From Eleftheria terrae (lineage in GTDB: Bacteria; Pseudomonadota; Gammaproteobacteria; Burkholderiales; Burkholderiaceae_C): DNA of 64,000 nucleotides. A model generated the notes under the pieces. That model did not search any database and was not told the DNA's origin. It saw only the letters and a list, made by a program, of their open reading frames with translations. Shown here one piece after another: positions 1 to 36,657 of the stretch (position 1 is the stretch's first letter; each line of letters begins with the position of its first letter). The DNA lies in the NCBI RefSeq assembly GCF_030419005.1, contig NZ_CP106953.1:434001-498000 (forward strand), in the 5' to 3' direction. The translations under genes were made by a program, and so were the position numbers.

Positions 1-42
1 GACTGAGCTGTCCCTTCGAATACTTCTTTGCCGACAATTCGC

Positions 43-3000
43 TCACAAGGACGCCCCCTCAATACTAACCAGATCAGCCTCTATTTGAGTCAAAACATAG
101 TCACACAGTCCTTCAACCGTTGGACTCTTGAACATCGCAAGCAGCGGAATTTCTATTCCCAGCTCGTAATTAAGCCAATTGACCACACGAGCTGCGGATA
201 GCGAGTCGCCCCCCAAGGAGAAGAAGTTATCGTGAATGCCCACGCGCTCCACTTTTAGTACGTCTGCCCAAATCTCCGCTAACGTGCGCTCTATCTCTGT
301 CCGTGGCGCAACGTACTCCGTTCCTAAATTAATCTGGCTGGCATCAGGCGGCGGTAAGCCTTTACGATCCACTTTGCCGCTCGGAATCAGTGGTAGCTCG
401 CTCAAATATACGAATGCACTAGGTATCATGTATTCAGGTAATACTTGCTGCAGATGGCGTCTCAGTTCGTTAACCGATGCTGACTTCGATTCGGGATCAC
501 CCACCAAATATGCCACCAGCCGCTTCTCCCCTGGAATATCTTCTCTGTCAACGACCACTGCTTCGCGGATCGCTTCATGACACACCAGCGCATGCTCAAT
601 TTCGCCAAGTTCTATGCGGAAACCGCGAAGTTTGACCTGATGATCGTTACGGCCAAGATATTCAATATTTCCATCCACACGCCACCGACCCAAATCTCCC
701 GTTCGGTACATGCGCGCTGCTGGCTCATCTCCAAAGGGGTCCGCCAGAAATCTCTCAGCTGTCAGCTCGGCTCGATTCAGATACCCACGTCCTACCCCAA
801 CTCCTCCTATATATAGCTCGCCAATCACGCCGATCGGTACAGCACGACGGTGGCCGTCCAATATGTATATTTGTGTGTTTAATATAGGGCGGCCAATGTG
901 CTCGATTTTCTCTGCCTGCCGTTCAATTCGAGTCGATGTAGAATAGGTAGTCGTCTCTGATGGGCCATAAAGATTACGCAACACCACATCCCCACATACC
1001 GAATAGATTTTCTCCATCAAGCTCGACCTTAGCGGTTCACCAGCTAAATTGATAGCTCGAACACCACTGAAAGTTTCCTGATAGCTATCTAACATTGTGT
1101 TAATAGCGGACGGAACCGTATTGATTAGCGAGATCGATTGCGATTTATTCGCGAATGCGAAAACATCGTTCACGAGATGCACTGTGGCGCCCCGCACCAG
1201 AGGAGCGAAACATTCATAGACTGATAAGTCAAAATTTATCGATGTTGAGAACAGTGTTTGCTCCATCTCTTGCGAAGCAAACTCCGAGCGAGACCAGTGC
1301 AATAGATTCACCGCACTACGATGCTCGATCATCACACCTTTGGGTTGACCCGTTGACCCAGAGGAATAGACCACATAAGCCAGATGATTAGGCTTTACGC
1401 CACTTTCAGCTGCCCCTATATTCTTTACTCCCTCACTGCCGCCCTCCGACCGAGTACCGCAGCCGATCTTTATCAACGACTCCACTCCCAGACTACCCAG
1501 CACCTCACTCCCAACGTCATCGCATAACACCACTTGCGGACGCGCATCGTTCAACATAAATCGCAACCGGTCTACTGGGTATTCAGGGTCCAACGGAAGA
1601 TACGCCCCACCTGCCTTCAGGATGCCCAGCAAACCCACCACCATTTCGACACTCCTGCCTACACAGATTCCTACCAGCGTGTCGGGCTCTACAGACAATC
1701 CCCGTAAATAGCGCGCTAGCCGGTTCGCACGTACATTAAGCTCTGTATAGGTCAGCCGATCTTGACCCTGAACAATTGCCACCGCATCGGGAGTTTTGAT
1801 TACTTGCTCCTCAAAAAGCTGATGCACGCAACGATCTCTTGGATACTCCCCTTTAGTTGCGTTCCATTCCTCTAATATTTGACGCCGCTCTCCTGCGGGC
1901 AGTATATCCAGCTCGCCAATTGATCTATCGGGGGATAGCTCCAATGCCCCCGCCAATTCACTTAGCGATTTTTCCATGAATCGGCAGATACGCGTGGCTT
2001 CAACACCAGGCACAGCCTGAACCGTCAACCCCATCGCTTCACCGCAATCATCCACCGATAACATCAGCGGGTAGTTAGTGCGCTCCTCAACATAAATCCA
2101 TTCCATTCCCTCCACCCGCTCAGCAATATCCTCTACCGTTGGTCGGTTGTGTCGGTAGTTCAGCAGCGCACTAAACAACGGAGCTGGCGCCGCTACACCA
2201 CTACACTGCTGCGCCAGCGACAACGACGCGTGTTCATGCCTTAACAACCTCGCTAACGAACGATGCGTCTGGTTCACGCATTCGAGTACGCTTCTCCCTT
2301 CGATCGATACGCGGATTGGCAGCGTATTAATGAACAACCCCATCGCCTCGTCCGCACCGGAACCTGCCTCCATCCTGCCAAGCAATACTGTTCCAAATAC
2401 CACTTGCTCGCGACCCGCCGTTCGGCCCACGACCAAGCCCCACGCCACGTGACACACACTCGCCACGCTAACGCCCATCCGCCTCGATAGTCTCTTTAAC
2501 CGCCCAACCAACTCATCAGACAGCGGTAAGTGCGCTTCCTCAACCCTCTGACCTACATCGCGGATTCCCAGCAGACCAAACGGTGCTGTCGGCTCGTCAA
2601 TGTCCTGCAACATCTCCCGGAAAAACTTCTCATGCTCTTCGCAACTTATCCCCAATCGCACTTGTCCAATCAAGTTCCGAAATGGTTTCGGCAGCGATAA
2701 TTCACTGCCGCGATTGTTCAATAGGAACCCGACTTCACGGCTCTGAATCTCCAGCGTCAGGTGATCCCCGATCAGGTGGTGCAATAACATGGTCAGCACC
2801 CATCGGCCATTCTCACCGTCAAACCCTACCGCCAGCTGCATTAAAGGCGCTTGAGTTAAATCAATCCGGTAATGGAACGGGTCAAAAAGCTTCCTCATCT
2901 GCTCCGCCGCAGGCCCTGCCCCGGCTGATAGCTCTAAATGCGTAACACGTAACCTTGCTTCCCGCCAAACAACCTGCACAGGTTCAGACAAGCCCTCCCA

Positions 3001-5259
3001 TTGAAAGGCCGTTCGTAAAACATCGTGCCGGTCCACGACTTGTTGCAGTGCACTCAGGTATCGATCCAACAGTTCCCGATTGGTAAATGTCATCTGACCG
3101 ATCAGCAAGTACGGATCACCCTTCACCGACAGCAAATTGTGAAATAAGATTCCCTCCTGCAACGGCGACAAACCATAGATATCCTGAATGTTGCTCACCC
3201 CACCAGGAGTACGTTCAATCACACGATCAATACTTGCTTGATCCAGTCGCGCGAGCGGCAGCAGCTCTGGTGTGATCTCCTTGGTAGCTGTGTCTATCAA
3301 GTTAGGCGGCACTACCATCCCACTCGATTCATCCAACGTACCAGCAAACGCCGACAAGGCCGGTGTCGCGAACAGCGCGCTCACGTTGGCGGCAAGTCCT
3401 AGGCGTCTCAACCGTTCGATGAATGTCACCGCCAACAGCGAGTGACCGCCCAACTCAAAAAAATTGTCCCAACGACCCACTCGCTCTATCTTCAGCAGCG
3501 CAGACCAAATATTGGCGATCGCTATTTCTATCTCCCCTTGTGGCGCCTCATAAACCCGGCGCACTACGACCGAGTTGTCTGGCGGCGGCAAAGCTTTACG
3601 ATCATGCTTGCCGTTGGGAGTCAGCGGTAGGTGCTCCAACACCATGAACGCCTTGGGAACCATGTGATCGGGGAGTGCTTTTAACAAATGGTCACGCAGG
3701 CTAGCAACGACATCCGTCTCCGGGTCCACCGTTTTTAACGTGACATACGCCACCAGCCGCTTCTCGCCAGGTTCATCCTCGCGCGCCACCACCACCGCTT
3801 CACGAATCGCTTCATGCCGCAACAGCGCAAGTTCAATCTCGCCTAGCTCTATCCGGAAACCACGAATCTTGACCTGATGATCATTGCGGCCTAGATACTC
3901 AATATTTCCATCAACACGCCACCGACCCATATCTCCAGTCCGGTACATCCGTGCCGTCGGATCGTCGCTAAACGCGTCCGGCTGAAATCTCTCCGTCGTC
4001 AGCTCCGGTTGGTTCAGATACCCCCTGGCCACTCCTTCTCCGCCGATGTAAATCTCTCCTGTAACCCCTACTGGCACAGAATGGAGGTGCTCATCCAGCA
4101 CGTAGATACGCCTATTGCCCATGGGGCGGCCGATGTGTGGCGGCGTTTCATCTCCCTTCAAACTAGCAATCGTTGCACTTACAGTGCATTCTGTTGGACC
4201 GTAGACGTTAAAGAATTCTATTCGCTCGTCCCTTGCCAAAGTCCGCCACAAATCCACGTCGATGACTTCGCCGCCCGCTAGGACTAGCCGTAGCTGTCGT
4301 GCGCGATCGAACAAACCTGCGAAAATCCATGATCTTAGTTGAGATATCGTGCAGTCAATACACTCGACCGCGTGTTGGGATAAATAGTCCCCGAGCATCG
4401 ATATATCATTTTGATACTCTTGCGGCACCACAATAATCGCTCTGCCGGACAACAATTGAATGGTCTGCTGAACAGACACATCAAAGTTGAAGGACGCATT
4501 TACCGCGACACGGCAACACTCTGCTGCGTTGTCGTAGACTTTCTCCAGGCCTTGCCACAGATTTATGACGTGCCGATGCTCGACCAACACTCCTTTGGGC
4601 TGCCCGGTAGATCCAGAGGTATAGATTACATAAGCCAGATTATCGGAATTTAACTCCCGCTCTTGCAAGTCTAGATTGCCTCTCGGCTCCAGCCCGATTT
4701 CATTCAAATCCCCCAAGCCAATAACTTGGGCATTTGTTGGTGGTACGCCTTTACGGTGTGTGCCTAAAGCTAGCAGAATGTCGGGTGCCGCATCTCTCAG
4801 CATGTACTCCAGCCGCTCCGCCGGATAATCGGGGTCCAGTGGTACATATGCTCCTCCGGCTTTAAGTATGCCAAAGATTGCCACAATCGTATCAATACTG
4901 CGTTCGATATATAATCCCACCAATCGATCCGGACCCACGCCCTTGCGAACCAAATAGTGCGCAAGTTGATTGGCTCTTGAATTGAGTTCGGTGTAGGTAA
5001 GCGTCACATCTTTGTACACGAGCGCCACCGCATTTGGCGTTCGTTCTACCTGTTGCTCAAAAAGCCGATGAATGAGGCTCTCATTTGGATACGGTATTTG
5101 CGTCGCATTAAAGAGCTCAATCTCGTGCTGTTGCTCGTTGTCCCTCGCATCTTGCCGCTCTACCCTTGAGATTGGCGCATGAGTGATCATTTCAGTTTTC
5201 ATGTGAAGTTCTAGGATTTCAAGCTCGGACACAGAGGCAGATGTTTCCCGACGGCTCAT
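43..5259 (-). CDS. Non-ribosomal peptide synthetase, two modules (A-T-C-A-T)
   Basis: Multimodular NRPS that activates two amino acids and joins them on carrier domains. From the chosen start, adenylation domain 1 is at about 50-560 (YTSGSTGQPKG, YGPTE, YRTGD, NGKHDRK), carrier 1 near 605 (ELGGHSLLA), a condensation domain at about 660-1090 with HHLIGDH near 826, adenylation domain 2 from about 1150 to 1640 (YSSGSTGQPKG, YGPSETT, SGKVDRK) and carrier 2 near 1684 (SLGGDSLSA). There is no N-terminal condensation domain, so this looks like a starter module. There is no thioesterase, so chain release must occur elsewhere, presumably on a gene left of the window. I chose the ATG at 5259 because it overlaps the upstream stop in an ATGA; an in-frame ATG at 5298 is the alternative. 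By-eye specificity residues are D-V-Q-D-V-A-V-V-S for A1 and D-L-Y-N-N-A-L-T-Y for A2. G+C is lower than in most of the window. Confidence 0.93.
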   Translation of the reverse strand: MSRRETSASVSELEILELHMKTEMITHAPISRVERQDARDNEQQHEIELFNATQIPYPNESLIHRLFEQQVERTPNAVALVYKDVTLTYTELNSRANQLAHYLVRKGVGPDRLVGLYIERSIDTIVAIFGILKAGGAYVPLDPDYPAERLEYMLRDAAPDILLALGTHRKGVPPTNAQVIGLGDLNEIGLEPRGNLDLQERELNSDNLAYVIYTSGSTGQPKGVLVEHRHVINLWQGLEKVYDNAAECCRVAVNASFNFDVSVQQTIQLLSGRAIIVVPQEYQNDISMLGDYLSQHAVECIDCTISQLRSWIFAGLFDRARQLRLVLAGGEVIDVDLWRTLARDERIEFFNVYGPTECTVSATIASLKGDETPPHIGRPMGNRRIYVLDEHLHSVPVGVTGEIYIGGEGVARGYLNQPELTTERFQPDAFSDDPTARMYRTGDMGRWRVDGNIEYLGRNDHQVKIRGFRIELGEIELALLRHEAIREAVVVAREDEPGEKRLVAYVTLKTVDPETDVVASLRDHLLKALPDHMVPKAFMVLEHLPLTPNGKHDRKALPPPDNSVVVRRVYEAPQGEIEIAIANIWSALLKIERVGRWDNFFELGGHSLLAVTFIERLRRLGLAANVSALFATPALSAFAGTLDESSGMVVPPNLIDTATKEITPELLPLARLDQASIDRVIERTPGGVSNIQDIYGLSPLQEGILFHNLLSVKGDPYLLIGQMTFTNRELLDRYLSALQQVVDRHDVLRTAFQWEGLSEPVQVVWREARLRVTHLELSAGAGPAAEQMRKLFDPFHYRIDLTQAPLMQLAVGFDGENGRWVLTMLLHHLIGDHLTLEIQSREVGFLLNNRGSELSLPKPFRNLIGQVRLGISCEEHEKFFREMLQDIDEPTAPFGLLGIRDVGQRVEEAHLPLSDELVGRLKRLSRRMGVSVASVCHVAWGLVVGRTAGREQVVFGTVLLGRMEAGSGADEAMGLFINTLPIRVSIEGRSVLECVNQTHRSLARLLRHEHASLSLAQQCSGVAAPAPLFSALLNYRHNRPTVEDIAERVEGMEWIYVEERTNYPLMLSVDDCGEAMGLTVQAVPGVEATRICRFMEKSLSELAGALELSPDRSIGELDILPAGERRQILEEWNATKGEYPRDRCVHQLFEEQVIKTPDAVAIVQGQDRLTYTELNVRANRLARYLRGLSVEPDTLVGICVGRSVEMVVGLLGILKAGGAYLPLDPEYPVDRLRFMLNDARPQVVLCDDVGSEVLGSLGVESLIKIGCGTRSEGGSEGVKNIGAAESGVKPNHLAYVVYSSGSTGQPKGVMIEHRSAVNLLHWSRSEFASQEMEQTLFSTSINFDLSVYECFAPLVRGATVHLVNDVFAFANKSQSISLINTVPSAINTMLDSYQETFSGVRAINLAGEPLRSSLMEKIYSVCGDVVLRNLYGPSETTTYSTSTRIERQAEKIEHIGRPILNTQIYILDGHRRAVPIGVIGELYIGGVGVGRGYLNRAELTAERFLADPFGDEPAARMYRTGDLGRWRVDGNIEYLGRNDHQVKLRGFRIELGEIEHALVCHEAIREAVVVDREDIPGEKRLVAYLVGDPESKSASVNELRRHLQQVLPEYMIPSAFVYLSELPLIPSGKVDRKGLPPPDASQINLGTEYVAPRTEIERTLAEIWADVLKVERVGIHDNFFSLGGDSLSAARVVNWLNYELGIEIPLLAMFKSPTVEGLCDYVLTQIEADLVSIEGASL

Positions 5260-6752
5260 GATCTTATTAGCTCTGGCCGCCGGGAAATATCGTGCCATTT
5301 GGCACTAGAATCATTGTTCGGGGCACTACCACAGGCGAGGACAGGGAGCTTTTCATGTATTAATCTGGCGGCAAGCGCGAAGTCCGTGATCCCTAGCCGG
5401 TGCTGCGCAGATTTGCTTTCTCCCAAGGTAAGCTCTGCCAAGATATCCTCTTGAATTTTTCCTCGTTGCTGTGCCTGTGCGTATGAGATCTCCGGATGAA
5501 ATGTCACCATGGAATACTGGGGAATGAATCGATCAGGAAACCGCCTCTCGAGCTCAAGTTCCAGAAACTTGCGGAGAACAAAATCTGGCTGAAGTACTGC
5601 GGCAGACAACTCCATATAGTTCTCAAGAGACATTTGAGCGATAGCATTCGTATCTGCGCGGCGTACTTTTTCGAAGTCCAGGAATAGAGGCGCCCACTGC
5701 TCGTGCTTGTCCAACAACGAGTCGAACACCACACAGTCCTCGAATGCTGCATTTACGCCCTGACCGTAGAAGGGCACGATAGCATGTGCCGCGTCTCCCA
5801 GAAGCAATACAGCGCCCAGGGTTTGCCACGGCTTCACAGACACAGTGCCCAGCCGACTCTGTGGATTCGAGCTAAATTGCTCGGTCAGGTTCTGGATGCG
5901 TGGCACAGCATCCGGAAATTCCCTATTAAAAAACTCGCTCACGCCCTGTGAGTCTTTTAATGCCGCGAAACTTACCGGCCCGGTGTTCTTCAGAAATAAA
6001 GTGGCGGTCATGTTGCAATTCAGATTCGGCATCGCCACAAGCATAAAGTCACCGCGCGGCCATAGGTGTAGTGCGTCAGAATTTAGCGCATAGCCGCCAG
6101 CAAATGAGGGGAGTGTGAGCTCTTTATAGCCATGGTCGAGCATGTCAAAACACGCAGCCAAATAGCCTCTTTCAACAAGACTCGCTCGAACGGCTGAATT
6201 TGCGCCGTCAGTGGCAATGGTGGGTGCCAACTCGACGCTGTATTCCTTTCCATGCGTTTTGTCGCGAAAGGTAAGTCGATTCTCTTTTGGGTCGGCAGCT
6301 ATGCATTGCTGATCGAATCGAATAGTGATATTAGGATAGCGCGCAGTTTCTTCGATCAGAATACGTTGAAGGACGACGCGCTGGATTGAGTAGATGACCT
6401 CGTGCTCTCGCTGTCCATAGAGTTGTAGGATTGAGCGTCGTGAAGTAGTGTGAACCATGCGGCCTCGCATCGGTATCAGTCGTGACGCAACGGTACTCAT
6501 GACGCCAGCTCGCTCCAACGCGTTGATTCCGCGCGCAGCCAACGTGAGATTGATAGAGCGGCCACGTTGCGTCCTCACTCGCCGTGGATCTGAGCGCTTC
6601 TCATACAGAACCACTGAAAATCCCCGACGGGCCAGCATCAAAGCAAGCAAGGGGCCGGCCAAACCTGCACCTACAATATTTATGGGTCTGCATGGATCGG
6701 GTCGCATCGTATTACTTTCTTGGCACACAGTCGCAAGGCTATGAGTTTCCAT
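5256..6752 (-). CDS. FAD-dependent kynurenine 3-monooxygenase-like hydroxylase
   Basis: Flavoprotein aromatic hydroxylase resembling kynurenine 3-monooxygenase, which converts kynurenine to 3-hydroxykynurenine with NADPH and O2. Seen in the sequence: N-terminal FAD-binding motif IVGAGLAGPLLALML, the second FAD motif GDAAHAIVPFYGQG, and a C-terminal block FIPQYSMVTFHPEISYAQA followed by QRGK that is very characteristic of this family. The length (498 residues, or 483 from the ATG at 6707) is slightly above the usual 450-480; the later start lies just before the FAD motif and may be the true one. The stop overlaps the NRPS start by 4 bases, implying translational coupling. Inside an NRPS operon its job is probably to supply a hydroxylated tryptophan-derived building block rather than NAD precursors; that is inference. 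Lower G+C than the genome at large. Confidence 0.88.
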   Translation of the reverse strand: METHSLATVCQESNTMRPDPCRPINIVGAGLAGPLLALMLARRGFSVVLYEKRSDPRRVRTQRGRSINLTLAARGINALERAGVMSTVASRLIPMRGRMVHTTSRRSILQLYGQREHEVIYSIQRVVLQRILIEETARYPNITIRFDQQCIAADPKENRLTFRDKTHGKEYSVELAPTIATDGANSAVRASLVERGYLAACFDMLDHGYKELTLPSFAGGYALNSDALHLWPRGDFMLVAMPNLNCNMTATLFLKNTGPVSFAALKDSQGVSEFFNREFPDAVPRIQNLTEQFSSNPQSRLGTVSVKPWQTLGAVLLLGDAAHAIVPFYGQGVNAAFEDCVVFDSLLDKHEQWAPLFLDFEKVRRADTNAIAQMSLENYMELSAAVLQPDFVLRKFLELELERRFPDRFIPQYSMVTFHPEISYAQAQQRGKIQEDILAELTLGESKSAQHRLGITDFALAARLIHEKLPVLACGSAPNNDSSAKWHDISRRPELIRS

Positions 6753-6910
6753 ACCTCAAAAGTTGTGCCATTTATAATTGAAGACTTACACGCCGCTAGC
6801 GTGCCTTGAACTCGCTGTGTGGCAAGTTCCTTCCTTGCTGTAGAACTCTCGTCACTGGGACCTAATGCGGGCTATTGCGCAAATGAATGACCTAGTGCCA
6901 GAAGACATGC

Positions 6911-7681
6911 CTACTTGATGGCGTAGACCAAGCACATCGTGGTGCCGTCCACGTATCTTTGGTTTTGCATTATTTCTTCCAGGATTTTGTAATCCCGCTT
7001 CTTTTCAAATTCCCTTTCCATTCTTTTGGCTTCGTGCCTATGTAATGACTTAACTGCAAACTCAGTGGTGTCCTCAACTCGAACATATTTGAAACCAGCT
7101 TTTAGCACGTCGTCTCTGTAAGCATCCAGAGTTGGCAGGTAATTCTCTTTAGGGAAGGCTGGGCCTACATCGGCGAGCAGACTCTCATCATAAAAGAAAT
7201 CCCATATTGCCAGCCTTCCACCGGGCCTTAAGATGCGATGAGCCTCCTGGAGGAATTTGTAGCGCGTTCGGAAATGATTTGCGCTCTCGATACAGAGTAC
7301 GTTATCAAACGATGACTCGCTGAAATTGAGGTTTGCTGCGTCCATTAGCTTAAAATCGCATTCCGGAGCAATTGCCCGGCAGATTTCCAACTGTCGTTCT
7401 GAAATGTTGATGCCAGTTATGTTCTTGGGCGCAAAATACTTTGTCAGAAATTTCGTAGAAGCGCCCTTCCCGCAGGCGACGTCCAAAACGTTCCCGTCTG
7501 TATTGGTGAAGAATGAGACCAACGTTTCGATCAGATTGATCTGAGCGATCTCTAGACTGTCCTCAACCCCCTTCCAATATCCGACATTAAAGAAACCTAA
7601 CTTGTGGATCGGTTCTGCCTGCTCGCCAAACATGAGTGTTTCGTAGTAGTTATTAACCGTGTCCAAGATGTTATCTTCCAT
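6911..7681 (-). CDS. SAM-dependent small-molecule methyltransferase
   Basis: Class I methyltransferase of 256 residues. The SAM-binding motif I reads VLDVACGKGAST at about residue 64; the post-I block GINISERQLEICRA and the LRPGGRLAIWDFF segment are typical of RebM/UbiE-like enzymes acting on natural products, sterols or quinones. The start at 7681 is supported by GGAG seven bases upstream; the longer open frame to 8044 only reads through IS DNA. It lies upstream of the monooxygenase (158 bases apart) on the same strand, so it is probably part of the same biosynthetic operon. It might methylate the hydroxylated aromatic unit or the peptide; the target cannot be read from sequence. An IS end lies only about 35 bases upstream, so the native promoter or preceding genes have been displaced. 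Confidence 0.85.
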   Translation of the reverse strand: MEDNILDTVNNYYETLMFGEQAEPIHKLGFFNVGYWKGVEDSLEIAQINLIETLVSFFTNTDGNVLDVACGKGASTKFLTKYFAPKNITGINISERQLEICRAIAPECDFKLMDAANLNFSESSFDNVLCIESANHFRTRYKFLQEAHRILRPGGRLAIWDFFYDESLLADVGPAFPKENYLPTLDAYRDDVLKAGFKYVRVEDTTEFAVKSLHRHEAKRMEREFEKKRDYKILEEIMQNQRYVDGTTMCLVYAIK

Positions 7682-7769
7682 CTGAATTCTCCATTTCGAT
7701 TTGAATAAGGGTGAGGTGACCTGCCCCCTTCCGCCGTGCCACTCATTCGGAAGGAGTCGGGGTTGAAGG

Positions 7770-8408
7770 TTACTTGATCTCTTTCGAAGCTGTTTGTTGT
7801 CGAGCAGCACCGCCAGCATGCTGGCGGTGCTGCTCGGCGAAGCGTGCCGGCGGGATGCGTCCGATGCTGCTGTGGGGACGTACCTTGTTGTAGTCGCGTC
7901 GCCAGTGCCCGATGGTCTCCCGGGCCTGCTGCAGGGTCTGGAACCAATGCTCATTGAGGCACTCGTCGCGGAACTTGCCGTTGAAGCTCTCGATGTAGCC
8001 GTTCTGCATGGGCTTGCCCGGCTGGATCCGCAGGTGCCGTACACGATGCTCGATGGTCCAGGCGATGAAGGCGCGGCTGGTGAATTCCGGCCCGTTGTCA
8101 GTCCTCACCGCGGCGGGATAACCTCGGAAGCGAGCCGCGCGGTCCAACAGCCTCGTGACGTACTCGCCGGAGATGCCGTAGTCGACGGTGATGTCGACGC
8201 ACTCGTGGCTGAAGTCGTCGGCGACCGTCAGGCACTTCAGTCGCCGGCCGCTGGCCAGGCGGTCGCTGACGAAGTCCATGCTCCATACCTCGTTGACCGC
8301 GGTGGCCGCCTGCAACGGCAGGCGCTCAGCCGCCGGCCTGCGGACCTTGCGGGAGAGCCCCACGAGACGACACGCGCGACGCTGCGACAGCTGGTGCTCT
8401 TGAACCAT
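7770..8408 (-). CDS. IS3-family transposase OrfB (DDE integrase core)
   Basis: DDE transposase catalytic subunit. Visible catalytic blocks: WSMDFVSDRL (first Asp), RTDNGPEFTS (second Asp) and NGYIESFNGKFRDECL (Glu). The frame is open upstream past the orfA stop at 8441, so translation probably comes from a -1 frameshift out of orfA near 8445, as is usual for this family; the ATG at 8408 is only a convenient start. The C-terminus is complete and ends about 50 bases inside the IS end. It may still be catalytically competent, but its orfA partner is truncated. Confidence 0.85.
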   Translation of the reverse strand: MVQEHQLSQRRACRLVGLSRKVRRPAAERLPLQAATAVNEVWSMDFVSDRLASGRRLKCLTVADDFSHECVDITVDYGISGEYVTRLLDRAARFRGYPAAVRTDNGPEFTSRAFIAWTIEHRVRHLRIQPGKPMQNGYIESFNGKFRDECLNEHWFQTLQQARETIGHWRRDYNKVRPHSSIGRIPPARFAEQHRQHAGGAARQQTASKEIK

Positions 8409-8440
8409 CCTGCAGGCCGCCTCGCGCTTGACCCCTGGGG

Positions 8441-8699
8441 CTAACGCTTTACCCCGAGCACGCTCTTGAGCGCATGCATGTCGAGATGGGCCTCAGCCAG
8501 CAGCTTCTTAAGCTTGGCGTTCTCCGCCTCCAACTCGCGCAGCCGCTGCGCGTCCAGCACGTCCATGCCACCGAACTTCGAGCGCCACTTGTAGAACGTC
8601 GCGTCGCTGAAGCCGCCCTTGCGGCAAATCTCGGCGATCGGGATACCGGCCTCGGCCTGCTTGAGGAACCCAATGATCTGGGTGCCCCCCGCGTCACAA
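8441..8699 (-). pseudogene. IS3-family OrfA, N-terminus missing
   Basis: Helix-turn-helix/leucine-zipper DNA-binding subunit of the same element. The recognisable part runs from IIGFLKQAEAGIPIAEICRK through ATFYKWRSKFGGMD to the C-terminal coil ending GVKR. The first roughly ten codons, including the usual start, are absent: homology stops at about 8686 and the second IS begins at 8700. No start codon with a ribosome site remains in frame. Confidence 0.7.
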
Positions 8700-8749
8700 T
8701 ACTTGTCGCCCCAATAGAACGATGACCGCGGGGGCGAGAAGAGAACGAG

Positions 8750-10855: not shown

Positions 10856-12910
10856 ATGATTGATGCGGTCCGACTAATGATTCGACGCACTCATTATCCG
10901 TTGGGAGCGATGTTGACCATTGTCTGTAGGTATGCAGAGTACCAACGAAATATAGTTTTCTCTTGCTGCTTGATTGCTTTGGCTCTTGCCGCTCCACTTG
11001 TAGAAGCATCGAATGGTGCCGCGACAGCAGCACAAAAACGACACGAAAGAATCTTCTACATCAGTATGCAACCAGGCAATCTGGATATTTATTATTTTTC
11101 CAAGCTTGGAGCCCAACCTCGACGAATTACGGCAGACTTTGGCAATGATTACAACGCAACGATATCACACGACGGACGCTGGCTGGTTTTTACATCTGAA
11201 CGAAATGGGAATCCCCATCTTTATGTTCTCGACCTGAAAAACGGTGGCGATCCTAGGCCACTAATCCATAGCGAATTTATGGAGGATCAGGCTGTTATCA
11301 GCCCTGATGATAAGACAATCGCTTTTGTTAGCACGCGTGACGGCACTGCTGACATTTTCACTCTGCCATTCAATCCAAAACAAATTCAAGGCATCGAGCG
11401 GGCCAACAATCTAACTCATGATACTGGCGGAGAATTTCGGCCTGCCTTCTCGCCCGACGGACACATGATTGCGTTTTCCTCGGATGGAGATACTCCAGTT
11501 ACCGGACCACCGGATGCTCGAGTGCGAGAGGGCCACATTTACGTGATGGACTCCGACGGAAAAAATCGGCGCAGATTGACCAATTCGCGCGGCTGGGATG
11601 GATCACCGACCTGGTCGAAGGATGGGAAGAATATTTTCTTCTACTCTACCAGCTATTCCGCTAGTAACTTTACTACTTATCCCATAAATGGTAATCAGTC
11701 TCGTATCTGGGTAATGGATGTAAATGGAAGGTTTCCCAGACCGATATCTGCCCCTAACGAAGTCGCTTTTTCCCCGACTCTAACTCCAGAGGGACGGGTT
11801 GCATATGTTGTCCAAACAGGCGAAGGCGAAAACGCACGCTGGAAAGTGATGTCTGTTGAACAGGACGGCTCGAACCAACGCCAGGAAACCGATACATCGA
11901 CGGACTATTACAAACCCGTGTTCGATCCGGTTACAGGTGCAATGTTTTGCCATGGGATCGGGCCCATGAAACCTGGCATACCGGAAGGACCGCTCTTTCC
12001 GGGCATGCAATATCTCGGCCGAGGGCCTTTTCTCGTTAATGGTTCGCCTAGGCGAGTGTCTCTTCCAGACCGAGAAGTGGAGCTGTACGCGGTACGGGCA
12101 TTTTCTGTCCTTCCGCATCCACACCAGAGTCGTTTAGCGAGCACCATAACGTCATCAGGATCAACAACACTGATGCTAACTAACATAAGTGGTTCGGACA
12201 TTAGAAAGATTACTCGCTTGCCCTCCACGGACCTGCCTTGGCAGGAGATGTCTTGGTCGTCAGATGGTAAATGGATCGCTTTTACCCAGGGCAGCCTGTT
12301 TTCGCCGCCGAAGACGGAGGCTGACATTTGGAAGATACATCCGGACGGTACAGGAGCCGTGAATTTGACACCGAATTCGCCTGGGAATGACGGCTCTCCG
12401 AGTTTTTCAGGGGATGGCCGTCGAATCGCTTTCCGCAGCGGACGAACAGGGAATTATAATATATACGTCATGAATTCAGATGGGACCGGTGTAAAACGTT
12501 TGACGGATGGTCAGTCAAACGACAATTTCCCCGCATTCTCACCTCTCAACGATGAAATTGCGTTTTCCTCTGACCGCGATGGAGAATTGGACCCTAAGAC
12601 CGGGCGCAGGACATTCGAGATATATACTCTGAAAGTTTCACCTGATGGCACGCCGGGTGAATTGCGCCGAATCACCTACAGCCGCGGCCAAAATGCCCAT
12701 CCACAATACTCACCGGATGCGCAATGGCTGATATTCACTTCTGAGCGAGGTGGTCTGAACGATGAACAGCCGCTCCTGAACATACCCATATTCAATCCTC
12801 AGCCTTACGGGGATCTTTATGCCTATCGATTAAAAGACGGCGCTCTTTATCGCCTCACAAATAACAGATGGGAAGACGGCCTGGCTTACTGGGCTCCGCC
12901 AGTAGATTAA
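10856..12910 (+). CDS. Exported TolB-like beta-propeller (PD40 repeats) protein
   Basis: 684 residues. A long positive N-region and a hydrophobic stretch around residues 32-50 (IVFSCCLIALALAAPLVEA) indicate export. The remainder holds repeated PD40/TolB blades of the type ISHDGRWLVFTSERNGNPHLYVLD, FSPDGHMIAFSS, FSGDGRRIAFRSGRTGNYNIYVMN and YSPDAQWLIFTSERGG, which would fold as one or two beta-propellers. Ribosome site GAAGGG lies 6 bases before the ATG. The role is unknown; TolB-like propellers bind proteins or glycans in the periplasm. Its G+C is clearly lower than the flanking IS DNA and close to that of the NRPS operon, so it may have arrived with that cluster. No partner gene adjoins it. 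Confidence 0.85.
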   Translation: MIDAVRLMIRRTHYPLGAMLTIVCRYAEYQRNIVFSCCLIALALAAPLVEASNGAATAAQKRHERIFYISMQPGNLDIYYFSKLGAQPRRITADFGNDYNATISHDGRWLVFTSERNGNPHLYVLDLKNGGDPRPLIHSEFMEDQAVISPDDKTIAFVSTRDGTADIFTLPFNPKQIQGIERANNLTHDTGGEFRPAFSPDGHMIAFSSDGDTPVTGPPDARVREGHIYVMDSDGKNRRRLTNSRGWDGSPTWSKDGKNIFFYSTSYSASNFTTYPINGNQSRIWVMDVNGRFPRPISAPNEVAFSPTLTPEGRVAYVVQTGEGENARWKVMSVEQDGSNQRQETDTSTDYYKPVFDPVTGAMFCHGIGPMKPGIPEGPLFPGMQYLGRGPFLVNGSPRRVSLPDREVELYAVRAFSVLPHPHQSRLASTITSSGSTTLMLTNISGSDIRKITRLPSTDLPWQEMSWSSDGKWIAFTQGSLFSPPKTEADIWKIHPDGTGAVNLTPNSPGNDGSPSFSGDGRRIAFRSGRTGNYNIYVMNSDGTGVKRLTDGQSNDNFPAFSPLNDEIAFSSDRDGELDPKTGRRTFEIYTLKVSPDGTPGELRRITYSRGQNAHPQYSPDAQWLIFTSERGGLNDEQPLLNIPIFNPQPYGDLYAYRLKDGALYRLTNNRWEDGLAYWAPPVD

Positions 12911-21572: not shown

Positions 21573-22927
21573 CAGGCTGCTGAAATACTGCGCTGAAGCA
21601 CCTACCTCGACCCGCGAGCTGATGGAGTTTCGGTAGCTGCCGTCGCGAGGAGTGTCAGAAGGGCCATTTCCGGGCCGGTTCGCCCCTGTGGAGGGCCGAG
21701 TTGCGCACCTGCGCTGCTCATCTGGCGCCTTGCAGACGGACCTGTCCCAGCGAGCGCATGCGCACCAAGTTGTAGGCCGCCATGTTCAGCACGAACAACT
21801 GGTCCACCTTCTTGAGTCCGCGCACCATCACCTGCCGGATCGAGCCGATGGTCTTGGCCCACCCGAAGGCCTGCTCGATGCGCTTGCGGCATTGCATCGA
21901 CAACGCGTACCCGTCGGTCTGGGCGATCTCATCGGGCACCGCCGAGCGACGCCCCGACTTGTTCTGCGCCACATGAGGCTCGACCTTGAGCTGCTGCAAC
22001 TCGGCGATGAACTGCGCCGCGTCGTAGCCCTTGTCTGCACCCAGCGTGATCTCTGCCTCAGGGTTGACCTGCCGGGCATCGTTGATCATGGCCCGGGCCG
22101 CCGCGCGCTCGGCATAGCCGTCTGCCTGAGTGACCACGGCATTGACGATCAGGCCGTGCCGGTTGTCCATCAGTGTGTGGCCCATGAAGCGCATCTCGCT
22201 GGCAGTCTTGCCCTTGCAATACAGGCGGCTGTCTGGATCGGTCTTCGATTCGTGCGTGTCGTTGCTGCGCGGCTGGCCCCGGAAGTCGCTGCCATCGTTG
22301 CTGCTGCCACCGCCCGCGTCGTCGTCGTCACCGGCCTTCTTGGGCACAAAGCTCTTGTGGCTGGCCCACGCCTGGATCAGCGTGCCGTCCACACTGAAGT
22401 GTTCCTTGGACAGCCAGTTCTTGCGCTCGGCTTGCGCCAGCACTTCGTTGAAGAACGCGACCACCGCATCGTGCTCGATCAAGCGCTGTCGGTTCTTGCT
22501 GAATACCGTGGGCACCCACACGTTGTCGTCCATCGATAGGCCGATGAACCAGCGAAACAGCAAGTTGTATTGCACTTGCTCCATCAGCAGTCGCTCCGAG
22601 CGCACCGAGTACAGCACCTGCAGCAACATCGCCCGTAGCAGCTTCTGCGGGGCGATGCTCGGACGCCCGCCCTTGGCGGCGTCCTCATACATGTCGGCGA
22701 ACATGTCTTCAAGCTCGATCAACGCGTCGTTGACCATCGCGCGTATCGCTCGCAGCGGATGCGTGGCCGGCACGAAGTCGTCCAGCTTCTTGACGCTGAA
22801 CAGGCTCTCGGTGAAGGTGTCGGGACCGCGCATAGGTGACAACAAGATTCAGGTTCGGGTGCTGGGTGACACTGTGCCGCATCTCCGCCAGGATGCGCTG
22901 CCGACGGCGAGGTATTTCAGCAGCCTG
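21573..22927 (-). mobile_element. 1355-bp IS5-family element, copy 1
   Basis: Terminal inverted repeats CAGGCTGCTGAAATAC; flanked by CTAG duplications at 21569-21572 and 22928-22931. It carries one transposase gene on the minus strand. By shared residue changes (YCKGK, GDNKI in the opposite frame) it is closest to copy 6 at 58342-59696. Confidence 0.93.
21718..22845 (-). CDS. IS5-family transposase (copy 1)
   Basis: 375 residues. N-terminal InsH/DUF772 dimerisation region (ATHPLRAIRAMVNDAL, then YSVRSERLLMEQVQYNLLFR), then the DDE domain: Asp in FSVDGTLIQAWASHKS, Asp in TLGADKGYDAAQF, Glu in RIEQAFGWAKTIG. A long antisense frame (21652-22539) is only a shadow. Full length and probably active. 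Confidence 0.92.
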   Translation of the reverse strand: MLSPMRGPDTFTESLFSVKKLDDFVPATHPLRAIRAMVNDALIELEDMFADMYEDAAKGGRPSIAPQKLLRAMLLQVLYSVRSERLLMEQVQYNLLFRWFIGLSMDDNVWVPTVFSKNRQRLIEHDAVVAFFNEVLAQAERKNWLSKEHFSVDGTLIQAWASHKSFVPKKAGDDDDAGGGSSNDGSDFRGQPRSNDTHESKTDPDSRLYCKGKTASEMRFMGHTLMDNRHGLIVNAVVTQADGYAERAAARAMINDARQVNPEAEITLGADKGYDAAQFIAELQQLKVEPHVAQNKSGRRSAVPDEIAQTDGYALSMQCRKRIEQAFGWAKTIGSIRQVMVRGLKKVDQLFVLNMAAYNLVRMRSLGQVRLQGAR

Positions 22928-23520: not shown

Positions 23521-24875
23521 CAGGCTGCTGAAATACTGCGCTGAAGCACCTACCTTGACCCGCGAGCTGATGGAGCTTCGGTAGCTGCCGTCGCGAGGAG
23601 TGTCAGAAGGGCCATTTCCAGGCCGGTTCGCCCCTGTGGAGGGCCGAGTTGCGCACCTGCGCTGCTCATCTGGCGCCTTGCAGACGGACCTGTCCCAGCG
23701 AGCGCATGCGCACCAAGTTGTAGGCCGCCATGTTCAGCACGAACAACTGGTCCACCTTCTTGAGTCCGCGCACCATCACCTGCCGGATCGAGCCGATGGT
23801 CTTGGCCCACCCGAAGGCCTGCTCGATGCGCTTGCGGCATTGCATCGACAACGCGTACCCGTCGGTCTGGGCGATCTCATCGGGCACCGCCGAGCGACGC
23901 CCCGACTTGTTCTGCGCCACATGAGGCTCGACCTTGAGCTGCTGCAACTCGGCGATGAACTGCGCCGCGTCGTAGCCCTTGTCTGCACCCAGCGTGATCT
24001 CTGCCTCAGGGCTGACCTGCCGGGCATCGTTGATCATGGCCCGGGCCGTCGCGCGCTCGGCATAGCCGTCTGCCTGAGTGACCACGGCATTGACGATCAG
24101 GCCGTGCCGGTTGTCCATCAGCGTGTGGCCCATGAAGCGCATCTCGCTGGCAGTCTTGCCCTTGCGATACAGGCGGCTGTCTGGATCGGTCTTCGATTCG
24201 TGCGTGTCGTTGCTACGCAGCTGGCCCCGGAAGTCGCTGCCATCGTTGCTGCTGCCACCGCCCGCGTCGTCGTCGTCACCGGCCTTCTTGGGCACAAAGC
24301 TCTTGTGGCTGGCCCACGCCTGGATCAGCGTGCCGTCCACACTGAAGTGTTCCTTGGACAGCCAGTTCTTGCGCTCGGCTTGCGCCAGCACTTCGTTGAA
24401 GAACGCGACCACCGCATCGTGCTCGATCAAGCGCTGTCGGTTCTTGCTGAATACCGTGGGCACCCACACGTTGTCGTCCATCGATAGGCCGATGAACCAG
24501 CGAAACAGCAAGTTGTATTGCACTTGCTCCATCAGCAGTCGCTCCGAGCGCACCGAGTACAGCACCTGCAGCAACATCGCCCGTAGCAGCTTCTGCGGGG
24601 CGATGCTCGGACGCCCGCCCTTGGCGGCGTCCTCATACATGTCGGCGAACATGTCTTCAAGCTCGCTCAGCGCGTCGTTGACCATCGCGCGTATCGCCCG
24701 CAGCGGATGCGTGGCCGGCACGAAGTCGTCCAGCTTCTTGACGCTGAACAGGCTCTCGGTGAAGGTGTCGGGACCGCGCATAGGTGGCAACAAGATTCAG
24801 GTTCGGGTGCTGGGTGACACTGTGCCGCATCTCCGCCAGGATGCGCTGCCGACGGCGAGGTATTTCAGCAGCCTG
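23521..24875 (-). mobile_element. 1355-bp IS5-family element, copy 2
   Basis: Same terminal repeats as copy 1; CTAG duplications at 23517-23520 and 24876-24879. Same orientation as copy 1, about 590 bases away, so the two could form a composite unit around the DUF3885 3' half. Confidence 0.93.
23666..24793 (-). CDS. IS5-family transposase (copy 2)
   Basis: 375 residues, full length with all three DDE blocks. It differs from copy 1 at a few residues (MLPPMRGPD start, NDALSELEDMF, GQLRSNDT, AERATARAM), showing it is a diverged copy rather than a fresh duplicate. Confidence 0.92.
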   Translation of the reverse strand: MLPPMRGPDTFTESLFSVKKLDDFVPATHPLRAIRAMVNDALSELEDMFADMYEDAAKGGRPSIAPQKLLRAMLLQVLYSVRSERLLMEQVQYNLLFRWFIGLSMDDNVWVPTVFSKNRQRLIEHDAVVAFFNEVLAQAERKNWLSKEHFSVDGTLIQAWASHKSFVPKKAGDDDDAGGGSSNDGSDFRGQLRSNDTHESKTDPDSRLYRKGKTASEMRFMGHTLMDNRHGLIVNAVVTQADGYAERATARAMINDARQVSPEAEITLGADKGYDAAQFIAELQQLKVEPHVAQNKSGRRSAVPDEIAQTDGYALSMQCRKRIEQAFGWAKTIGSIRQVMVRGLKKVDQLFVLNMAAYNLVRMRSLGQVRLQGAR

Positions 24876-28246: not shown

Positions 28247-29601
28247 CAGGCTGCTGAAATACCTCGCCGTCGGCAGCGCATCCTGGCGGAGATGCGGCAC
28301 AGTGTCACCCAGCACCCGAACCTGAATCTTGTTGCCACCTATGCGCGGTCCCGACACCTTCACCGAGAGCCTGTTCAGCGTCAAGAAGCTGGACGACTTC
28401 GTGCCGGCCACGCATCCGCTGCGGGCGATACGCGCGATGGTCAACGACGCGTTGATCGAGCTTGAAGACATGTTCGCCGACATGTATGGGGACGCCGCCA
28501 AGGGCGGGCGTCCGAGCATCGCCCCGCAGAAGCTGCTACGGGCGATGTTGCTGCAGGTGCTGTACTCGGTGCGCTCGGAGCGACTGCTGATGGAGCAAGT
28601 GCAATACAACTTGCTGTTTCGCTGGTTCATCGGCCTATCGATGGACGACAACGTGTGGGTGCCCACGGTATTCAGCAAGAACCGACAGCGCTTGATCGAG
28701 CACGATGCGGTGGTCGCGTTCTTCAACGAAGTGCTGGCGCAAGCCGAGCGCAAGAACTGGCTGTCCAAGGAACACTTCAGTGTGGACGGCACGCTGATCC
28801 AGGCGTGGGCCAGCCACAAGAGCATTGTGCCCAAGAAGGCCGGCGACGACGACGACGCGGGCGGTGGCAGCAGCAACGATGGCAGCGACTTCCGGGGCCA
28901 GCCGCGCAGCAACGACACGCACGAATCGAAGACCGATCCAGACAGCCGCCTGTATCGCAAGGGCAAGACTGCCAGCGAGATGCGCTTCATGGGCCACACG
29001 CTGATGGACAACCGGCACGGCCTGATCGTCAATGCCGTGGTCACTCAGGCAGACGGCTATGCCGAGCGGGCGGCGGCCCGGGCCATGATCAACGATGCCC
29101 GGCAGGTCAACCCCGAGGCAGAGATCACGCTGGGTGCAGACAAGGGCTACGACGCGGCGCAGTTCATCGCCGAGTTGCAGCAGCTCAAGGTCGAGCCTCA
29201 TGTGGCGCAGAACAAGTCGGGGCGTCGCTCGGCGGTGCCCGATGAGATCGCCCAGACCGACGGGTACGCGTTGTCGATGCAATGCCGCAAGCGCATCGAG
29301 CAGGCCTTCGGGTGGGCCAAGACCATCGGCTCGATCCGGCAGGTGATGGTGCGCGGACTCAAGAAGGTGGACCAGTTGTTCGTGCTGAACATGGCGGCCT
29401 ACAACTTGGTGCGCATGCGCTCGCTGGGACAGGTCCGTCTGCAAGGCGCCAGATGAGCAGCGCAGGCGCGCAACTCGGCCCTCCACAGGGGCGAACCGGC
29501 CTGGAAATGCCCCTTCTGACACTCCTCGCGACGGCAGCTACCGAAACTCCATCAGCTCGCGGGTCGAGGTAGGTGCTTCAGCGCAGTATTTCAGCAGCCT
29601 G
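28247..29601 (+). mobile_element. 1355-bp IS5-family element, copy 3
   Basis: CTAG duplications at 28243-28246 and 29602-29605. It shares with copy 5 (55419-56773) the changes SIVPKK in the transposase and AGLLGHNAL in the opposite frame, so these two form a subfamily. Confidence 0.93.
28329..29456 (+). CDS. IS5-family transposase (copy 3)
   Basis: 375 residues, full length, all DDE blocks present; one private change (FADMYGDAAKG instead of FADMYEDAAKG). Confidence 0.92.
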   Translation: MLPPMRGPDTFTESLFSVKKLDDFVPATHPLRAIRAMVNDALIELEDMFADMYGDAAKGGRPSIAPQKLLRAMLLQVLYSVRSERLLMEQVQYNLLFRWFIGLSMDDNVWVPTVFSKNRQRLIEHDAVVAFFNEVLAQAERKNWLSKEHFSVDGTLIQAWASHKSIVPKKAGDDDDAGGGSSNDGSDFRGQPRSNDTHESKTDPDSRLYRKGKTASEMRFMGHTLMDNRHGLIVNAVVTQADGYAERAAARAMINDARQVNPEAEITLGADKGYDAAQFIAELQQLKVEPHVAQNKSGRRSAVPDEIAQTDGYALSMQCRKRIEQAFGWAKTIGSIRQVMVRGLKKVDQLFVLNMAAYNLVRMRSLGQVRLQGAR

Positions 29602-33517: not shown

Positions 33518-34797
33518 TCTTTTCCTACAAAGTGTCCACGTCATCATCGAGGCGCGATCACGCCATTGCATTGGCCCAAACGCCAAGAAGCCGAACCGCT
33601 CGGCGGCGAAAGAGACATGAATAAGCTTTGCGGTCCTGCGCTGTACTGTCAGCTGGGGGAGGCGACCCGGGAGACTGGTTGATTTGGGCTACGCCCCGGC
33701 CCTCGCTCACTCTGTGCGGGCATAGGCCTGTAGCCTGGACCATCTGAGTGTTTGTCGCTGGCCGCCTAGCGTCGCTTGGACGAGTTCCTGGCGCCGTTGC
33801 GCGCGAGCGCCGGCGAGTGTAGCGGTTCTTCGGTCACCGGCCACAGTCGTTGGAGTTGGAGTCGACCCGGTTTCACGGACACCGCATCGTTGAGTCCGAG
33901 GCCACAGGGCGGGTTCGGGTTGAGGTATAGGGGCGGTCAAATGGCGATACCAGGACGCGCGCTATGGCTCCTAGCGATCGGCAGACCGGCGCCTGCTCAA
34001 CGCTCGGGCCTACCGACGACTGTCGATGTCGTCACCCGACGGCTCGGCACGCTCCGAAGCTGTGGTGGCGAGGGTACGCATGGGTCAGTGGACCTCACCG
34101 CGGGCTTCCTTCAAGCTGGCTTGATGCACTTCCCGTTAGCAGTGCACGCCATACACCGGCAGGCCCAGCTCGATGTGGCGCCCCGCGCCAGAAGCCCCGC
34201 CTGTCCCTGTCCCACAGGTCCTTGGCGCACAGACGACGCTGTCGGTTATGGAGCGATCCCCAGCTGCCGCTCCGCCACACCTCTCCATGACGTCCGATCC
34301 AGCGCATCACCGTGTTGCCTCTCAGTGGCGCGATGGCCCGCGCCCGAGGGCATCGTGGAAGGCAAGAACCGCCAGAGCCTTGGACACGGGGCCAGCCACC
34401 CGGCGTGGACGAGGCGCCGGGAATCGTGGGAAGCGCGCCGTGCAGCGAAGGCCGCTTCGCCCGTCGGGTCGGGCTGGCCCTTGCGGCTTGATCGTGGGTC
34501 CGCAGCAGTCGCCATGGCTGCCTGGCGCAATACATGGATCCGCCTTCCCCAAGACGAGGGGTTGTACCAGGAAGGCACCCTCGAAATGCCAACTAGTTCC
34601 TCATTGGTTGGCTTTCGACTCGATAGACTCGTCACTATTTGACACATTCACGCTCGACGTTCGGACTTGTCGCCGTCCTCCGCTCAGCTTTGCTGTGGGC
34701 GCGTGGCATGTGCGGCGCACTGGCACTGCACCGGCTAACGGCCGGTATGGGTCAGCCCGACGCCGGCGTCGTTCGAAGGCGCGAAGCAAGAACAACG
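33518..34797. other. 1.3-kb degenerate region
   Basis: No intact gene. On the minus strand around 34100-34600 broken frames carry GNTVMRWIGRHGEVWR and RQRRLCAKDLWDRDRRG, vaguely like an eroded transposase (IS1-like at best). Open plus-strand frames such as 33776-34642 lack any protein character. The promoter for the divergent lipoprotein must lie near its right edge, and that of the secretion operon near 34640-34797. Confidence 0.4.
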
Positions 34798-36582: not shown

Positions 36583-36657
36583 GCGACCGTCGGCAGCCAC
36601 CCGCCGCTGTGCGGCGTGCGGCGGCTTGCCCTTGTCCCTGACACGAACAACAAGCGC

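Follow-up and report, generated by a model that had tools for sequence, protein, structure and literature searches.

An insertion-sequence-framed block of Eleftheria terrae with a kynurenine 3-monooxygenase-like gene coupled to a seven-module peptide synthetase: a tentative route to a 3-hydroxykynurenine peptide

The window analyzed here is a stretch of 64,000 nucleotides from Eleftheria terrae (positions 434001-498000 of the 737-kb contig C4, NZ_CP106953.1, in a four-contig genome of 7.03 Mb). Its left end carries a block of four genes on the minus strand, in which a methyltransferase and a monooxygenase that reads as a kynurenine 3-monooxygenase (KMO) are followed by two genes for nonribosomal peptide synthetases (NRPS1 and NRPS2), the second of which lies almost entirely beyond the window edge. 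We tentatively propose that the block is an acquired NRPS cluster whose product, a linear peptide not yet described and roughly seven residues long, would start with 3-hydroxykynurenine and end with dehydrobutyrine; for this chain of steps taken as a whole, doubt slightly outweighs belief. The features of the block are given below, with adenylation, thiolation and condensation domains written A, T and C, open reading frames as ORFs and insertion sequences as IS.

6911..7681, minus strand: methyltransferase, S-adenosylmethionine-dependent, 256 aa, opening the block (ORF list, sequence, Pfam)
5256..6752, minus strand: KMO by sequence, 498 aa (ORF list, PDB match, substrate-site positions)
5256..5259, minus strand: ATGA, shared by the KMO stop and the NRPS1 start (sequence)
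43..5298, minus strand: NRPS1, A1-T1-C2-A2-T2 (ORF list, Pfam, motifs)
1..46, minus strand: first codons of NRPS2, in GTGA overlap with the NRPS1 stop (sequence)
C4:415417-434046, equal to L014:217-18846, minus strand: whole NRPS2, 6209 aa (single continuous frame)
7717..8705 (right limit approximate), minus strand: IS3-family element or remnant, with orfB at 7770-8408 (ORFs, repeat comparison)

The methyltransferase, monooxygenase and NRPS genes were found where the original prediction had placed them, and the translational coupling that it had claimed for the last two was borne out, as the ATG at 5259-5257 overlaps the KMO stop TGA at 5258-5256. A second, longer start of NRPS1 at 5298 is also open (1751 aa, the listed ORF); the start at 5259, giving 1738 aa, is probably the one used. 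In the same manner, the NRPS1 stop (45-43) overlaps the GTG start of NRPS2 (46-44). NRPS2 runs past the left window edge with no internal stop over its 6209 aa, and all four frames of the block are intact. The methyltransferase begins at the ATG at 7681, with GGAG 7 nt before it (judged by eye); the mechanical ORF list carries this frame to 8044, through an IS. The gaps within and around the block measure 35 nt (IS end to methyltransferase), 158 nt and 173 nt. Since this leaves room for the four genes only, there is no ligase or kynureninase gene between the two IS ends.

The original prediction had described a two-module NRPS without loading C domain or release domain. This holds for NRPS1 (two A, two T and one C by Pfam, in the motif order A1-T1-C2-A2-T2) but not for the whole line, which continues in NRPS2 as C3-A3-T3-C4-A4(MT)-T4-C5-A5-T5-C6-A6-T6-C7-A7-T7-Cterm (motifs and Pfam), where MT is a methyltransferase domain in module 4. 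NRPS1 and NRPS2 together thus make seven modules, and a two-module line lacking a release domain is ruled out by this continuation. The closest NCBIfam model to NRPS1 was that of solanimycin SolG, at 1760.7 bits; this is below the cut-off of 2200, so that NRPS1 is not a member. Elsewhere in the genome, very large NRPS frames (2859-6519 aa) lie at about 472-720 kb of contig C3, the longest matches to parts of NRPS1 being 49-53% identical.

The A-domain codes were read by alignment on a fragment of GrsA. They are DVQDLGVVSK (A1), DLYNNALTYK (A2), DMENLGAVNK (A3), DAFWLGGTFK (A4), DAEEVGTVYK (A5) and DFWNIGMVHK (both A6 and A7). All seven begin with Asp, which we take to be the anchor of the substrate alpha-amino group; because it is kept in seven of seven domains, an anthranilate or other aryl starter unit is disfavoured, and the anthranilate-type unit of the original prediction finds no support. 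We presume the A4 code to be Val-like. DFWNIGMVHK stands among the Thr codes in the available part of PMC12283262, where N-methylated Thr is mentioned for it. The exact codes of A1, A2, A3 and A5 occurred in no paper searched, matches being limited to the Thr and Glu/Gln codes. Where aligned, A6 and A7 share 91% of their residues, and the domains C5, C6 and C7 are nearly identical, pointing to a recent module duplication in NRPS2. In a 25-row tree, domain C2 falls in a five-row clade (support 100/100) with C domains carrying an FHHM motif. As we take FHH to mark dual condensation/epimerisation (C/E) domains, residue 1 might be epimerised, which is uncertain.

The best PDB matches of the monooxygenase were KMOs (4e-94), and the protein carries the FAD-binding domain PF01494. 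Against 5fn0, 179 of 420 aligned residues are identical (43%). At 22 printed positions 17 agree, the changes being 215 I/L, 224 I/V, 226 L/M, 320 H/Y and 386 R/K. Nine positions were taken as the presumed substrate site. Eight are the same as in 5fn0 (R84, Y98, F238, P318, F319, N369, E372 and Y404), and the ninth, H320, is Tyr here and likewise in three other rows. In this 21-row comparison the eight residues are kept by 18 of the 20 other rows (5fn0 included), most of them being lost only in L021 and L036, two distant paralogues; L017, at 34% identity, keeps all eight. We consider it very probable that the monooxygenase is active on kynurenine.

KMO-like matches were counted, self included, in samples of genus, family, order, class and phylum that partly overlap: 2 of 9 genomes of the own genus (E<=1e-10, the other match at 29% identity), 2 of 399 of the family (1e-20), 2 of 399 of the order (1e-25), and, again at 1e-25, 16 of 369 of the class and 13 of 398 of the phylum. 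In a 29-row tree (L017, L021 and L036 left out; ten of eleven new class-level loci added, L056 being omitted), the enzyme forms a long branch within a set of 24 proteobacterial KMO rows (support 96/93), where no closer partner is supported; an earlier tree with long rows gave no resolution. This set includes KMOs that adjoin kynureninase genes. The original prediction had regarded a grouping with KMOs of primary metabolism as an argument against itself, and this is half the case: the enzyme groups with proteobacterial KMOs, whereas its own context is not a primary one.

That context was compared with other KMO loci. The 3-hydroxyanthranilate dioxygenase (3-HAO, PF06052) had no match in the whole genome, while in six of six comparison genomes (six of the twelve KMO genomes from the phylum search) it lies 1.4-3.2 kb from the KMO gene; standard control genomes gave no PF06052 match. 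As far as these searches reach, a KMO of NAD synthesis was rejected, as the genome has no 3-HAO match and the gene belongs to an NRPS operon, whereas the kyn genes lie on a different contig. The genome has one match each for kynureninase and tryptophan dioxygenase. They lie on contig C2, not left of position 1, where the original prediction had suggested looking for them; together with a formamidase-like gene (PF04199) they are adjacent in a kynB-kynU-kynA-like array. In principle, this array would be enough to supply kynurenine.

Among 24 short hit loci (12 from the phylum, one from the order and 11 new ones from the class; flanks of about 1.5 kb or less), tested for neighbouring kynureninase, dioxygenase and A-domain matches, kynureninase adjoins KMO in 16 and an NRPS A domain in none. 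The predicted build, a KMO by sequence within a betaproteobacterial NRPS operon, is supported. Four longer loci came from other sources; in two of them, L018 and L019, an adenylate-forming enzyme was matched at 24-26%. In L018 (Burkholderia multivorans second replicon), three genes lie next to one another at L018:9020-12186, encoding tryptophan dioxygenase, an alpha/beta hydrolase and a KMO with 41% identity to the query, with no kynureninase match within the 21-kb locus; these genes may make 3-hydroxykynurenine for another purpose. L019 (Nonomuraea gerenzanensis, also 21 kb) has a KMO relative at 40% and the adenylate-forming match at 24% (E 2.5e-25 to A1). On a Serratia entomophila plasmid (L020:6959-12931), another relative (40%) lies near methylmalonyl-CoA-mutase-like and ketoacyl synthase III-like genes, and neither a kynureninase nor a dioxygenase was matched in that locus. 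No close cluster emerged from searches of plasmid DNA and proteins. Nor did a Gram-negative cluster of this build appear among the listed results of searches in open-access full text.

The methyltransferase METHYLTRANSFERASE is of the Methyltransf_11 type (6e-22, over a protein of 256 aa). PF00891, to which we take AcmL to belong, is absent among its Pfam matches up to E=1. Its best PDB match is MitM (1.3e-15); many weaker ones include the aromatic C-methyltransferases 5mgz (E 7e-4) and 5m58 (CouO; 8e-4).

Sibiromycin-type pathways resemble the 4-methyl-3-hydroxyanthranilate (4-MHA) pathway of actinomycin in that a KMO and a methyltransferase feed an NRPS, and the transamination of 3-hydroxykynurenine to xanthurenate is the logic of quinolobactin. 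By analogy, the KMO might feed an aryl starter, either 3-hydroxyanthranilate made by the chromosomal kynureninase (actinomycin/pyrrolobenzodiazepine logic) or xanthurenate. The kynureninase gene on contig C2 would allow this, and the actinomycin 4-MHA route does use KMO, methylation and hydroxykynureninase in the available part of PMC6521150. However, the four genes fill the space between the IS ends and include no ligase or kynureninase, and Asp opens all seven A-domain codes. In addition, the actinomycin methyltransferase AcnM measures 346 aa in the same portion of PMC6521150, against 256 aa for the present enzyme, which also lacks PF00891; the parallel in methylation is weakened accordingly. 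An aryl starter is considered very improbable.

At the other end of the line, the terminal C domain has McyA (116 bits) and AmbE (109 bits) as its top PDB matches, the next being surfactin (67 bits). It forms clades with the AmbE and McyA domains supported at 100/98 (25 rows) and 100/99 (14 rows); from its place in McyA, we infer that the 8jbr domain is the CmodAA domain of microcystin. The motif HHAIEDG is intact, the A7 code upstream is of the Thr family and the T7 motif is GGDSI. Domain C3 lies outside both the C/E-like and the dehydrating clades. According to the available part of PMC10880069, AmbE-C2 dehydrates, AlbB-C3 both dehydrates L-Thr to E-dehydrobutyrine and hydrolyses the chain, and the T domains that donate to epimerisation-type and related C domains carry GGDSI instead of GGHSL; the AmbE residues defined by mutation are described there as not conserved in other dehydrating domains. 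The terminal domain fairly probably dehydrates Thr7 to dehydrobutyrine. Its release of the chain by hydrolysis is possible but somewhat doubtful.

Release could also take the form of an amide, if the terminal C domain captured a free amine such as putrescine. In the NRPS of one comparison genome (G006), the last C motif and two GxSxG serines are spaced 670 and 233 residues apart, exactly as H9721, S10391 and S10624 of the glidonin synthetase GdnB in the accessible text of PMC10587159. Because of this spacing, seen in one protein, we infer G006 to be Schlegelella brevitalea DSM 7029 and the window strain to be its congener. The terminal-module C domain of S. brevitalea does capture putrescine, terminal C domains are proposed to act likewise elsewhere (PMC10587159, same part), and the HHxxxDG motif is intact here. 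Nevertheless, the union of our domain with the one identified as glidonin C13 was rejected (p-AU 8.5e-45 in a 14-row test), and the domain sides with AmbE and McyA. Read with its long branch, its few references and its single amine-capturing reference, this comparison leaves amine capture improbable.

A 50-bp stretch at 7717-7766 recurs inverted, at 92%, at C4:415194-415243. Each copy forms one end of an IS3-family element with an inward-pointing transposase gene; one of these ends lies 35 bp before the methyltransferase start codon, the other 173 bp past the last stop. The GC content is 52.1% for NRPS1, 52.0% for KMO, 45.9% for the methyltransferase and 56.5% for NRPS2, against 64.4% in the window from 7.7 to 64 kb and 59.3% left of the cluster. 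On account of the lower GC and the inward-facing IS3-family ends, the block was probably acquired. It is not a fresh, perfect composite transposon, since the two elements match each other only in pieces and related stretches at 76-78% occur elsewhere on the contig. The contig is rich in IS, with four 375-aa transposase ORFs of near-identical look and TTG starts (21718-22845, 23666-24793, 28329-29456 and L013:12255-13382).

Flanked as it is by these ends, the block could instead be silent or in decay, a leftover that yields no product now. It may lack a native promoter, given how near the IS ends come (35 bp to the first start codon, 173 bp to the last stop). The single sigma-70-like site within 6600-8000 is on the opposite strand, in a promoter scan that was uninformative. 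Yet four intact frames, one of 6209 aa, argue against decay, and IS elements can supply promoters (general knowledge). We regard a silent remnant as unlikely and an active cluster in the present strain as rather probable.

The proposed pathway would run as follows. First, the tryptophan dioxygenase and formamidase-like genes of contig C2 would provide L-kynurenine, which the KMO would convert to 3-hydroxy-L-kynurenine. The adjacent methyltransferase possibly methylates this compound before it is loaded. The starter module A1-T1, which has no condensation domain, would then most likely load it as an alpha-amino acid, and the remaining six modules of NRPS1 and NRPS2 would extend the chain, module 4 having a Val-like code with its methyltransferase domain and modules 6 and 7 having Thr codes. 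Finally, the terminal condensation-like domain would dehydrate the last Thr to dehydrobutyrine and perhaps free the chain, like AlbB-C3 in albopeptide. That the KMO product enters the peptide at all appears moderately likely.

Several observations weigh against this pathway. The A1 code looks most like one for Gln or Glu: it is identical at 8 of 10 positions to DAQDLGVVDK, reported for Glu and Gln in the available part of PMC12283262, in a comparison that included no kynurenine code, and residue 1 may thus be Gln. Domain C2 itself reads FHN, unlike the FHH of the other members of its clade. The dehydrating references in the trees are two only, picked as best hits, and the terminal domain is 28-29% identical to McyA and on a long branch. 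The T-motif rule is unclean, with GGDSL in T2 before C3 and GGHSL in T1 before C2. Furthermore, the IS end 35 bp upstream may have removed a promoter, a transporter or further genes, leaving the cluster possibly silent or incomplete.

If residue 1 is Gln or Glu, the KMO product would enter at A2, A3 or A5, none of whose codes was matched in the papers searched, or would act apart from the peptide. On the other hand, the gene to which KMO is directly coupled, NRPS1, begins with the starter module, although position is no sure guide to substrate. We consider this reading as a whole unlikely; still, it is because the starter code favours Gln/Glu as strongly as position favours kynurenine that the 3-hydroxykynurenine peptide as a whole is proposed only tentatively.

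The fullest version of this proposal, in which a mobile IS-framed betaproteobacterial cluster has recruited a KMO so that 3-hydroxykynurenine, perhaps methylated, opens a heptapeptide whose terminal domain forms dehydrobutyrine and releases it by hydrolysis, is more doubtful still. If true, the heptapeptide would join a redox- and metal-active head to an electrophilic tail, and the block would give an example, outside actinomycetes, of an NRPS assembly line that has a kynurenine hydroxylase of its own. It would also offer a genetic route to peptides that contain 3-hydroxykynurenine as an amino acid, not as anthranilate, and a further case, besides albopeptide, in which to test whether a dehydrating condensation domain at the end of the line releases the chain.

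The rest of the window includes, at 10856-12910, a 684-aa WD40-like propeller protein (PD40) among IS elements, with no PHROGs match, and, at 34639-47532, a pair whose translations read like two-partner CdiB/CdiA (647 aa and a filamentous-haemagglutinin-like 3638 aa).

Among known systems, the bacterial KMO of PDB 5x6p/5fn0, presumably from Pseudomonas fluorescens and the QbsG of the quinolobactin cluster, resembles the present enzyme in its 43% identity, the eight substrate-site positions and PF01494. It differs in length (461 against 498 aa), in having His320 where the query has Tyr, and in that the query is tied to an NRPS operon.

The actinomycin acn/acm pathway shares a KMO step and a methyltransferase that feed an NRPS (PMC6521150, available part). 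In contrast, the present cluster is without dioxygenase, formamidase and kynureninase; KMO is the missing gene of the acn cluster in that text, whereas it is the one present here. The alpha-amino-type A domains, the seven modules and the terminal dehydrating-type C domain are further differences.

The glidonin synthetase is the NRPS of a presumed congener, and its C domains group with C2 and C3-C7 of the present line. Its terminal C13, with A*-T-TE (TE, thioesterase), captures putrescine (PMC10587159, accessible text), and its presumed genome, G006, gave no KMO match at E<=1e-10. Albopeptide is a Streptomyces tripeptide, and no KMO is mentioned for it in the part of PMC10880069 available. By its description there, the AlbA/AlbB system corresponds to the proposed line in having a dehydrating C domain last, which acts on Thr and hydrolyses the chain.

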